In this document: in pieces, positions 18-62,668 of the stretch
Numbering within the stretch: the first letter of the stretch is position 1
How the letters are laid out: the number at the start of each line of letters is the position of its first letter
DNA from: Candidatus Nitrosotalea okcheonensis
Lineage (GTDB): Archaea; Thermoproteota; Nitrososphaeria; Nitrososphaerales; Nitrosopumilaceae
Reading direction: 5' to 3'
DNA length: 64,000 nucleotides
NCBI RefSeq assembly: GCF_900177045.1
Contig: NZ_LT841358.1
Location: forward strand, 1,017,396-1,081,395
Translations under genes and position numbers: made by a program
The notes under the pieces: model-generated
Database searches by the model: none
What the model was told of the DNA's origin: nothing
What the model saw: the letters and a program-made list of their open reading frames with translations, nothing else

Positions 18-827
18 ATGAGTGAAAAAAGTCAGATTGAAAAAACGGTTCTAGAGGGTATAAGCTATGCCAAGCTTGAAAGGCACAAAGATGCAGTATC
101 ATTTTTTGACAAGGCGTTAAAACAAGACTCAAAAAATGTAGATGCGTTATACAACAAAGGAATGTCTCTTTTGAAACTAAAGAAAAACAAGGATGCAGTA
201 TCATGCTTTGAAAAAATAATTGAATACGATCCCAACCACGTAGACGCACTAAACAATCTAGGGAACCATTTTGCAGAGTTGCAACAGTTTGAAAAAGCAG
301 TTATGTATTATGACAAGGCGTTAGTAAACGATTCAGGATACATCCCAGCACTATATAACAAAGGAATTGCGTCAATTAGACTTGAAAAATATGATGCTGC
401 CATAGATTGTCTGAACAAGGTACTTGATAAAGAACCTGAAAACATGCAAGCAATGCACTACAAGGGATTGGTACTTGGCAAACAAAAAAAACATGAAGAT
501 GCATTATCATACTTTAATAAAATTTTAGAAAGGGAGCCAGAAAATAACGAGGCAACATTCTACAAGGCTACGGAGCTATCAGAGATGGGCAGACATGAGG
601 AGGCAATCACAATCTTTGATAAAATACTAAAAGAGTTTCCAAAAAACGGTACAATAATTTATGCAAAGGCGCGAAGTAAAGCACAAATGGGACAAAATGA
701 TGATGCCCTTGTTCTTCTTGCACAGGCAATATCCCATTACGGCAAAACCATAAAGAATTGGGCTATCAAAGACTCGGCATTCGATAAGATAAAAGGGGAT
801 CCCAGGTTTAAGACAATAGTGAAATAA
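18..827 (+). CDS. TPR-repeat protein
   Basis: The 269-residue product is almost wholly tandem tetratricopeptide repeats. About seven 34-residue units carry the usual A/G-Y/F-A pattern, for example ALYNKG, ALNNLG and AMHYKG near the start of successive helices. There is no signal peptide or membrane segment, so it is a cytoplasmic scaffold for protein-protein contacts. The stop codon is followed one base later by the ATG of the next gene, so the two are probably co-transcribed. The repeats do not reveal the partner; the tubulin-family gene lies about 450 bases downstream on the same strand. Confidence 0.85.
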   Translation: MSEKSQIEKTVLEGISYAKLERHKDAVSFFDKALKQDSKNVDALYNKGMSLLKLKKNKDAVSCFEKIIEYDPNHVDALNNLGNHFAELQQFEKAVMYYDKALVNDSGYIPALYNKGIASIRLEKYDAAIDCLNKVLDKEPENMQAMHYKGLVLGKQKKHEDALSYFNKILEREPENNEATFYKATELSEMGRHEEAITIFDKILKEFPKNGTIIYAKARSKAQMGQNDDALVLLAQAISHYGKTIKNWAIKDSAFDKIKGDPRFKTIVK

Positions 828-828
828 A

Positions 829-1128
829 ATGTCAGAAGATATGCTAAAAACAATCAAGGGTCTGCTCGCATCGGGCAGGGGAAATCCAAAGAGATTACGA
901 GAAATAATGGAGATTATAAAAAACGATGAGCCAATTGTTATGTCAGACTATAGATACATCCAGGATTTGGTAGAGTCTCACAACAGTACAGAAATAGAGC
1001 AGCCTCAAGTTACAGCCCAACCCAAAAAAGATACATCTGTGGAGCTTCTACGAATTAGACTTGCAGAAGGACAGATATCAATAGAAGAATTTCGTGTACT
1101 CAAACAAGCCCTGACAGAAGAAGAATAA
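829..1128 (+). CDS. Small protein with SHOCT-like C-terminus
   Basis: The 99-residue protein has a basic helical N-terminal half (about 1-50), a Gln/Thr linker and a C-terminal helix pair (about 72-99) of the form LLRIRLAEGQISIEEFRVLK. This matches the short C-terminal SHOCT domain (leucine-rich helix, G-x-I-[ST]-x-E-E-[FY] turn, second helix), an oligomerisation module. It begins one base after the TPR gene. The SHOCT call is from pattern only and no function for the N-terminal part is recognised. Confidence 0.65.
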   Translation: MSEDMLKTIKGLLASGRGNPKRLREIMEIIKNDEPIVMSDYRYIQDLVESHNSTEIEQPQVTAQPKKDTSVELLRIRLAEGQISIEEFRVLKQALTEEE

Positions 1129-1284: not shown

Positions 1285-2673
1285 TTGTCAAAATTTGCCC
1301 CACTACCACCAGCGCCGGTTATAATGACATGTTTTGGTCATTGCGGAATTGGCCTGGGTGCAGAAGCATATAGAAGACTATTGATTGATGTTGGAGCAGA
1401 TCCACTAAAACCAACATTAAAGGGCGAAAAGGACGAGTCCCGCATACTCAAAAGATATGGAAGTACAATTTTACGATTTCCAAACGCTTATGGTGGAAAT
1501 GAAATTCCACTCATCCCAAGAGCGCTTTTAATTGATCTAGATCCAAGAGCTGCCAATTTAATTTTACAGTCATATCCAGACCTGTTTGCCCTAAGAGACA
1601 AGCATGTAATTTCAGGTGCAGGCGGTGCTGCCAGAAACTGGGCAGAGGGCCGTACTAGATTCATCAAAGAAGTAAGTACAAAATATGACATGCAAAAACA
1701 GCTTGCAAGCCTTTCCCCAGAACCAGTAAGAGGTTTCACAATTCCATTTGCAATGGGAGGGGGCACAGGTGCTTCATTTGCAAGTGCGTTTATGCAATAT
1801 ATCAAAAAAGACACAAAAGAGCATGCTACAATTGCATCATTTGGATTATTGCCAGAATTTGGATGGGATCCTGTAATTCTAGAGGCATCTGCAATTAACA
1901 TAGTAATGAATCTTGAACACCAGATAAAATACAGTGATTGTTCCATATTATTTTCAAATAAAAGACTAAGAGAGCTTGCACAAAAACATGAAAAGAGGTT
2001 GGAAAAAATATCTTCCATAATAGACGACCTTCCAAAGGAACACGAGGTAGGTTGGAAGGACTATAGAGGAATGAATTTGATTGCAGCAAATGCAATTTCT
2101 ATGTTTATAGCATCTTTTGCAAGAGAGACAGAATGGGACATGTCGAACTATAGGACATGGCTTGCAACAAAGAGACCAAGATTTGCAGTTACTTGGGTAA
2201 TTCCAGTTATTCCTGAAGAGAGACAGTGGAGTTCTGATCTGATGACAAGTACCAAACACAATACAATGGAGGGAATTGTAGAACACATCAACAAGAAAGA
2301 AGATGCAGTACTGTTTGATATTGATGAAAACGACATAAGAGACAAGGGAGGACCAAAGGATTCCTGTTGTGTGCTTGTAAAAGTAAAAGGAGATTTTGAA
2401 GCAAAAGAAAGAGATGTACTAAAGAACATCATAAAAGATAGATTCCACATTGAGGAATCAAGAATGATATTTATCAAGATCCCAATTCTAGAAACGGAGC
2501 AGGCAAATGTTACAATACTTGTCAATACAAAGGCAATCGGAACAAAGATCTTAGAGATTGCAAGTGAAGCAGAAGCTTCATGGGATGCATTCAAAGACGA
2601 ATATGGCAAGTGGGGATTGTCTACTGAAGAATTCAAGGCAAGCCTTATGGACGTAGTCCATGAGTTTAGCTAG
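1285..2673 (+). CDS. Artubulin-like tubulin-family GTPase
   Basis: The 462-residue protein resembles eukaryotic tubulin more than FtsZ. T1 loop: GHCGIGLG (18-25), like tubulin GQCGNQIG. T3: IDLDPRA (83-89), like VDLEPTV. A NWAEGRT segment (118-124) is like tubulin NNWAKGHYT. T4 phosphate loop: GGGTGAS (158-164), tubulin GGGTGSG. The helix before T7, the segment WDMSNYRTWL (284-293) and the CCVLVKVKGD segment (361-370, tubulin CCLLYRGD) also align, as does a C-terminal helical region. Length matches tubulin, but there is no acidic tail. TTG is chosen because strand beta-1 (PVIMTCFG) needs the residues before the first ATG. It should bind GTP and polymerise, but the T7 Glu position looks like Asn, so hydrolysis may differ. 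Artubulins are known from Nitrosoarchaeum. Confidence 0.88.
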   Translation: MSKFAPLPPAPVIMTCFGHCGIGLGAEAYRRLLIDVGADPLKPTLKGEKDESRILKRYGSTILRFPNAYGGNEIPLIPRALLIDLDPRAANLILQSYPDLFALRDKHVISGAGGAARNWAEGRTRFIKEVSTKYDMQKQLASLSPEPVRGFTIPFAMGGGTGASFASAFMQYIKKDTKEHATIASFGLLPEFGWDPVILEASAINIVMNLEHQIKYSDCSILFSNKRLRELAQKHEKRLEKISSIIDDLPKEHEVGWKDYRGMNLIAANAISMFIASFARETEWDMSNYRTWLATKRPRFAVTWVIPVIPEERQWSSDLMTSTKHNTMEGIVEHINKKEDAVLFDIDENDIRDKGGPKDSCCVLVKVKGDFEAKERDVLKNIIKDRFHIEESRMIFIKIPILETEQANVTILVNTKAIGTKILEIASEAEASWDAFKDEYGKWGLSTEEFKASLMDVVHEFS

Positions 2674-2675
2674 AA

Positions 2676-3221
2676 ATGGCTGACTTTGCCTTTCTAGAGC
2701 AGGTTGCATCACGCATCAGAGAAAATAGGTCACAGCTAAAAGATACTGAGGACGAGCTTGCAACAGTGAATTTTAGAATTCATGAGATTCCCCTGAAGAG
2801 TCCAACAGAGTCTACATTTGCAAAAATGATAGGTCAAGACTACTATGATGCATCAGTAGATTTGGAAAAGGCAAAAGAGAAGTTAATTGCACAAAAAGAT
2901 GATCTCAGTACAAAAGTAAAAGAAGATATTGCATCATTCATAACAGAGTTTACTTCACATGACCTTGTCATTCCTCTAGAACCAAACCCAAAGATTGCAG
3001 ATGGTAACACTGTCTTTCACTACAAAAATAACGCAGTTTTTAATAACATACTTGCTATACTAGGCGAACTTTTGGGACTATCTCCACCAATACTTGTCAA
3101 GGACGTAATGTTCGCAGCCTCAGAAATAACAATCAAGGTAACAGATGAATATGAAGCCAAACAGAAATTTCTGAGTAGTATAAATGAAGTTCAGAAAACC
3201 TTATCAATCAAGAGAAAATAA
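2676..3221 (+). CDS. Predicted coiled-coil protein paired with artubulin
   Basis: The 181-residue soluble protein starts two bases after the artubulin stop, so it is almost certainly in the same transcript. Residues about 8-35 and 60-95 form charged heptad-like helices (RIRENRSQLKDTEDELA; DLEKAKEKLIAQKDDLSTK). A mixed C-terminal region (about 100-170) with predicted strands follows, and the tail is basic (SIKRK). There is no membrane segment and no recognised domain. The arrangement suggests a filament-binding or nucleating partner of the tubulin-like protein. This is inference from linkage and coiled-coil character only. Confidence 0.7.
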   Translation: MADFAFLEQVASRIRENRSQLKDTEDELATVNFRIHEIPLKSPTESTFAKMIGQDYYDASVDLEKAKEKLIAQKDDLSTKVKEDIASFITEFTSHDLVIPLEPNPKIADGNTVFHYKNNAVFNNILAILGELLGLSPPILVKDVMFAASEITIKVTDEYEAKQKFLSSINEVQKTLSIKRK

Positions 3222-62214: not shown

Positions 62215-62257
62215 GCAAGCTACATTTAATTGCATCAAGAATTTAGGCGTTATTTAT

Positions 62258-62351
62258 GCCGGGGTAGCTCAGCCTGGCCTAGAGTGCCAGTCCATACAAA
62301 AGGGTAATACTCATAATCTGGAGGTCGTGGGTTCGAAACCCACCCCCGGTA
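62258..62351 (+). tRNA. tRNA-Met (elongator, CAU) with 18-nt intron
   Basis: The acceptor GCCGGGG (62258-62264) pairs with CCCCGGT (one G:U), then the D-arm GCTC/GAGT, a T-arm GTGGG-TTCGAAA-CCCAC and discriminator A. The anticodon arm only closes if about 18 bases (62291-62308) are removed. CCAG plus ACTCATAA and TCTGG then gives a 5-bp stem and a normal loop with CAU, and a 76-base mature tRNA. The absence of the initiator's three G:C pairs in the stem favours elongator Met over initiator. Intron position at about 30/31 is non-canonical; its exact ends are inferred from pairing. Confidence 0.88.
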
Positions 62352-62668
62352 TACCACCTCTGTTTCGAAACCCAATAAACGAATTTGGGGTGTTTTTTCT
62401 TGGGCCTTTAATTCAAAAGGAAGCCTTTTGATATGATGGAAACAGATCTACACAACTCGCCCAAGCGTTTTGAGAGGGAAAAGGGAAACATCTCCGGATA
62501 CCTGTCAAAGAAGTGTTTCGTGTTTTTTGGATTCATTCTTTATTTAATTTGCATTTGTAACCTAAATTTTTGACTATTGATAACATAGTTTCTATTTGTC
62601 AGCTCTAATTGCAGTCAGAAAAAGAAACTAGTTCTTCTTCCTTAGCTAAAGTATCAAAGATGGAATCA
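62352..62668. other. 317-base region after tRNA-Met
   Basis: The region begins with a weak hairpin (CCCAA at 62371-62375 pairing with TTGGG at 62385-62389) followed by a T run (62393-62398), a possible tRNA terminator. TTCGAAACCCA from the tRNA T-arm recurs at 62364-62374. A 46-codon frame from the ATGATG near 62434 reads DLHNSPKRFEREKGN, somewhat like the start of thaumarchaeal tyrosine integrases, but it ends soon after. No full gene is seen. Confidence 0.4.

Follow-up and report, generated by a model that had tools for sequence, protein, structure and literature searches.

A stretch of 64,000 nucleotides from the genome of Candidatus Nitrosotalea okcheonensis, referred to here as the window, encodes what is, judged from its sequence, a genuine artubulin, the tubulin homologue of Thaumarchaeota. 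The gene directly downstream accompanies artubulin in every artubulin genome sampled, and the two very probably constitute one functional unit. The artubulin itself is a further member of an already known family. Artubulins have been known since 2012, from two Nitrosoarchaeum genomes (PMC3349469); Nitrosotenuis uzonensis was added later (PMC3835317), and recent trees also contain artubulins (PMC9871819, PMC13394414). The published artubulin work found describes neither the constant partner gene nor the uniform loss of the catalytic glutamate from the T7 loop, and against that literature both look new. A "conserved hypothetical protein" drawn in Figure 2B of PMC3349469 may be the partner. Table 1 lists the features discussed.

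Table 1. Features of the artubulin region and the FtsZ gene, in window coordinates.
Feature	Position	Strand	Basis
TPR protein, lineage-specific neighbour	18..827	+	Pfam TPR_1, E=1e-40
99-aa protein, weak SHOCT-like C-terminus	829..1128	+	SHOCT, E=0.04, below cut-off
Artubulin gene, 462 aa, TTG start at 1285, stop ending at 2673	1285..2673	+	Pfam PF00091, PDB phmmer, orthologues
T1 nucleotide loop GHCGIGLG, residues 18-25	1336..1359	+	Read from translation
T3 region GAGGAARNWAEG, residues 111-122, tubulin-type xNWAxG	1615..1650	+	Alignment to AtubB and gamma-tubulin
T4 glycine loop GGGTG, residues 158-162, intact	1756..1770	+	Invariant in 22 artubulins
T7 loop EWDMSN, residues 283-288, Asp285 kept, Asn288	2131..2148	+	22-artubulin alignment, MAFFT register
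Partner gene, 181 aa, no known family	2676..3221	+	Adjacency, 87/87 co-occurrence, AF2
FtsZ, 317 aa, degenerate T4 loop NLAGKSGAA	21355..22308	+	PDB matches, loop comparison

The TTG start of the artubulin gene is shared by close relatives. Other Nitrosotalea genomes encode the protein at 94-100% identity, N. devanaterra at 96%, and dN/dS in Nitrosotalea comparisons is 0.02-0.05, so the reading frame is not a product of chance. The Pfam tubulin GTPase domain PF00091 is recognized at E=2.3e-16, over the gathering score. A phmmer search of PDB ranks Asgard AtubA/AtubB best, followed by gamma-, beta- and alpha-tubulin, with neither FtsZ nor CetZ among the 60 matches listed. A profile built from 22 diverse orthologues reaches Heimdall AtubB at E=5.7e-22 over residues 12-233. 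These results bear out the initial annotation in calling the gene an artubulin with an intact GGGTG loop. Its further statement that both the loops and several non-loop segments resemble tubulin rather than FtsZ stands for the loops and for residues 10-235, the only part where similarity searches back it; the C-terminal segments are plausible matches, weakly aligned.

Searched alone against PDB, the C-terminal half matches neither tubulin nor FtsZ. Compared by hhalign with the C-termini of alpha-, beta- and gamma-tubulin, it gives a weak P=0.04, where the best of eight column shuffles gives 0.19. The register of that weak alignment sets CCVLVKVKGD on ACCLLYRGDV and NTKAI on NTTAI, and then continues into H11/H12. 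An AlphaFold2 model of artubulin made from a shallow 25-row alignment has a mean pLDDT of 35.

When the neighbouring genes of 34 diverse artubulins were clustered, only artubulin and the partner were common to all loci, every other neighbour being confined to one or a few lineages. The only reason that one locus, L083, is missing from the cluster count is that its genes are masked by a longer antisense ORF. The partner follows artubulin directly on the 3' side, with both genes on one strand, wherever the contig extends far enough. The gap is 2-18 bp at the 18 loci measured, and in the window the partner starts 2 bp past the artubulin stop. The upstream genes of the window behave differently from the partner: the TPR protein adjoins artubulin only in groups g1 and g5, and the 99-aa gene lies upstream of artubulin solely in the Nitrosotalea group and a few relatives (the g1, g5, g21 and g22 loci), is absent there elsewhere, and is probably outside the artubulin module.

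The partner is conserved down to about 25% identity. Among 400 Nitrososphaeria genomes, its long form occurs in 87 of the 87 that encode artubulin (Fisher p ~1e-88, a value without phylogenetic correction). The sole genome with the long partner and no artubulin is G258, where the contig ends just upstream. Partner wreckage persists in three genomes that lack artubulin, frameshifted in G195 and as fragments in G086 and G107, and two genomes (G111 and G374) carry two artubulins and two partners, each pair adjacent. Both genes are under purifying selection. Their trees are broadly congruent, with agreement in the main groups, and in a crude test their distances remain correlated after regressing out FtsZ (partial r=0.59, 0/2000 permutations). 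Adjacency and co-loss are evidence of functional linkage; that the two proteins bind each other is what we infer from it. In G119 and G220, an intact partner stands beside an artubulin that is missing all or most of its GTPase domain and keeps the C-terminal domain (L094 3810-4325 and L095 6921-7706). These truncated artubulins could result from gene decay or from faulty assembly; should they be real, they would point to the C-terminal domain of artubulin as the part bound by the partner. A third gene, of 311-325 aa and no Pfam family, lies 3' of the partner in family f4 at all examined loci but one (L086 8871-9848 and L092 8828-9763, for instance); this could be a third component particular to that lineage.

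Searches of the partner against Pfam, NCBIfam and PDB returned no family beyond generic coiled coil. Its AlphaFold2 (AF2) model, with a mean pLDDT of 65, contains a helical hairpin formed by residues 4-37 and 59-92 (pLDDT about 62-88) and an uncertain small alpha/beta domain at the C-terminus. Foldseek with this model returned nothing below E=0.001. An assignment of the C-terminal domain to KEOPS Pcc1 was rejected; real Pcc1 genes occur elsewhere in the genome, and hhalign gave nothing.

Homologues of the partner also occur away from artubulin. Family f2 has a long homologue on its own, which follows a radical SAM gene at a distance of 10-90 bp (L115 7116-7766, L116 6601-7149, L117 6573-7163, L118 7202-7759), and no artubulin was detected in the f2 genomes that carry it. 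Family f3 has a short form without most of the coil, opposite genes taken to be RNase P Rpp21, S19e and PDCD5 (L126 7142-7558, L123 6617-7093, L121 5315-5746). The idea that these homologues sit beside a divergent artubulin that escaped detection was considered and rejected: the artubulin HMM is blank at these loci, where the homologues adjoin radical SAM or ribosome-related genes. The C-terminal domain of the partner predates its association with artubulin, and since it is found without artubulin in f2 and f3, it has or had another job.

The GTP-binding loops were compared across 22 diverse artubulins from four families. In T1, residues G18, H19, G21, G23 and G25 are invariant. The T3 region GAGGAARNWAEG aligns with GQSGAANNWARG of Heimdall AtubB and with gamma-tubulin. 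In T7, E283, W284, D285, M286, S287 and N288 are each invariant in 22/22 sequences. A MAFFT alignment with fragments of alpha-, beta- and gamma-tubulin equates D285 with D251 and N288 with residue 254; in pairwise alignment this register is kept with alpha-tubulin and is not kept with beta- or gamma-tubulin. Because EWDMSN is identical throughout, Asn288 always stands in place of the catalytic Glu254 of alpha-tubulin. The initial annotation had read Asn at this position in the present protein; the multiple alignment agrees and makes the substitution general to all 22 artubulins. In alpha/beta-tubulin, E254 of the alpha subunit completes the GTPase site of beta, and K254 of beta keeps the GTP of alpha from being hydrolysed (PMC13394414). 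With Asn288 at position 254, every contact of artubulin would be expected to resemble the interface without hydrolysis.

We put at about even chances the whole picture in which positions 1285-3221 form a two-gene tubulin module that binds GTP, hydrolyses little of it and acts through the partner. Artubulin would bind GTP through T1-T4, as the conservation of these motifs suggests, and would assemble head to tail through longitudinal contacts, to which the invariant T7 and T4 faces point. The next subunit would supply Asp285 and no catalytic carboxylate. GTP at the interface would then, given N288, be hydrolysed slowly or never, so that polymers, or GTP-bound monomers, would be long-lived. The partner would bind artubulin as its obligate accessory, with one of two effects: cross-linking or anchoring filaments, or taking charge of assembly and disassembly where a hydrolysis clock would otherwise do so. 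Candidate cellular roles are shape, DNA positioning and division. Because the pair is missing from many genomes of the class, the class as a whole does not depend on the module. A broader proposal, which we advance tentatively and at somewhat less than even chances, is that artubulins supply the filaments of a two-component cytoskeletal system already present early in Nitrososphaeria. The tubulin, with Asn for Glu254 in every member examined, would not depend on GTP hydrolysis and would be governed by an obligate coiled-coil partner drawn from an older archaeal family.

Artubulin might instead not polymerize at all and serve as a GTP-dependent switch or scaffold, with the partner as its effector. 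The T7 catalytic carboxylate is missing in all members examined, the protein is single copy in a genome without a second tubulin, and its C-terminal half has no detectable sequence match to known tubulins, all of which would suit such a role. We nevertheless consider this rather unlikely, as Asp285 and the T7 residues around it do not vary at all over about 45% divergence, a pattern most easily explained by a longitudinal interface that has been kept.

No published work on artubulin function was found, and in the papers examined adjacency to an ESCRT-III gene, in one genus, is the only functional clue. That artubulin acts with ESCRT-III (CdvB/Snf7) in cell division was proposed in 2012 from the CdvB/Snf7 adjacency seen in Nitrosoarchaeum (PMC3349469). 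We recover the arrangement in the Nitrosarchaeum-like genus g4, where the gene next upstream of artubulin encodes a CdvB homologue (Snf7, E=9e-10) and a CMP/dCMP deaminase is also a neighbour, as in the published map. The genomic support for cooperation is narrow: CdvB stands beside artubulin at 3 of the 34 loci examined, all of them from g4, and at none of the 31 others. In contrast to the original description, CdvB is not adjacent in this genome, whose recognizable CdvB-like gene is about 0.48 Mb away; N. uzonensis likewise has artubulin without an adjacent CdvB (PMC3835317). The neighbour that never changes is the 181-aa gene, and its inseparability from artubulin weakens the ESCRT-III hypothesis, which we now regard as improbable.

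The artubulin search matched 88 of the 400 Nitrososphaeria genomes, or 87 after removal of G191, and these belong to four families (f1, f4, f5 and f9), with artubulin identities that range across the class from 100% down to about 53%. Matches in G191 and G150 (E ~1e-4 to 1e-6) were rejected as artubulins; they come from a FtsZ-like ORF of 903-904 aa, and the match in G191 is the T4 loop inside the 904-aa ORF. In family f6, a 903-aa ORF (L138 4412-7123) that combines a GGGTGSG loop with long stretches of coiled coil has the look of a large FtsZ/tubulin-like protein from a different subfamily. In a separate sample of 398 genomes across Thermoproteota, the artubulin profile found no artubulin outside Nitrososphaeria and matched no FtsZ at E<=1e-3.

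Distances between artubulins correlate with distances between the FtsZ proteins of the same genomes (r=0.95), and the artubulin tree groups sequences by family and genus. Both observations favour an old gene lost repeatedly over a recently acquired cassette. Recent acquisition of a mobile two-gene cassette in scattered lineages, from a source such as eukaryotes or Asgard archaea, would be in keeping with the patchy presence of the pair and with flanking genes that are unrelated between genera, yet besides the correlation and the tree it has against it that no plasmid, phage or viral copy was found, and we hold it to be very unlikely. A tblastn search of plasmids and phages gave no meaningful match; apparent matches in two viral contigs, L209 and L210, were to phage head-tail genes, by chance. 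An artubulin that is old in the class, and that has been repeatedly lost together with its partner and relocated, fits better.

That the protein is of the CetZ or FtsZ type and has been miscalled a tubulin is barely credible: although its significant matches come from the GTPase domain only and its C-terminal half has none, the listed PDB matches are all tubulins, the artubulin profile leaves every FtsZ of the Thermoproteota sample unmatched, the FtsZ of the genome is a separate gene, and indels place artubulins with tubulins (PMC9871819). The best PDB matches of the window FtsZ are all FtsZ (E=5.5e-10). The initial annotation had called this FtsZ degenerate, and its T4 loop confirms the description. 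Across the 30 genomes in which FtsZ T4 was compared (L179-L208), f1 proteins have no GGGTG-type loop and read NLAGK[ST]GxA; FtsZ of f4, in the same order, keeps a near-canonical GLGGATGSG, and f1 FtsZ diverges fast. Thaumarchaeal FtsZ shares its superfamily and its genome with artubulin; here it has lost GGGTG and is ~2.8 times more diverged (same genomes, within f1). FtsZ of N. maritimus does not polymerize in yeast (PMC3684127).

The artubulin of the window shares family, length, single copy and an accompanying degenerate FtsZ with the known artubulins (Yutin and Koonin 2012; Nitrosoarchaeum limnia, koreensis, Nitrosotenuis uzonensis), and is about 77-80% identical to members from neighbouring genera. 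By sequence profile, its closest solved relatives are Asgard AtubA/AtubB (Lokiarchaeum, Heimdallarchaeia), with similar T1, T3 and T4. AtubA and AtubB, however, are a tandem pair with slow GTPase activity that forms mini-microtubules (PMC13394414), whereas artubulin is encoded singly and carries Asn in place of E254. Eukaryotic alpha-, beta- and gamma-tubulin share with it the GTPase domain and the T3 xNWAxG motif; it differs in having Asn for the catalytic E254 of alpha-tubulin and in a C-terminal half that by itself has no significant match. The complete genome, a single contig of 1.97 Mb, has one artubulin copy and no second tubulin. Alpha- and beta-tubulin are two complementary subunits, and the suggestion that artubulin behaves as one half of such a pair finds no second half here: the genome has a single artubulin and one divergent FtsZ without a canonical GTP loop.

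Artubulins figure in discussions of how tubulin originated, and the initial annotation had supposed that this copy, from a possibly different lineage, would bear on it. That was only partly right. This is a further artubulin, from the Nitrosotalea group, but from the same class as Nitrosoarchaeum and Nitrosotenuis. A 2026 phylogeny describes artubulin placement, owing to a very long branch, as "never fully resolved" (PMC13394414), and one more close member of the same class leaves the question of origin unchanged. More immediate use lies in the inseparable partner, which, conserved to 25% identity, offers a direct and cheap experimental handle on artubulin, and in the uniform Asn at the catalytic position, which predicts a tubulin without a hydrolysis clock. 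Elsewhere in the window, a tRNA-Tyr of 96 nt at 62257-62352, its anticodon called as ata, probably contains an intron, with the anticodon misplaced.
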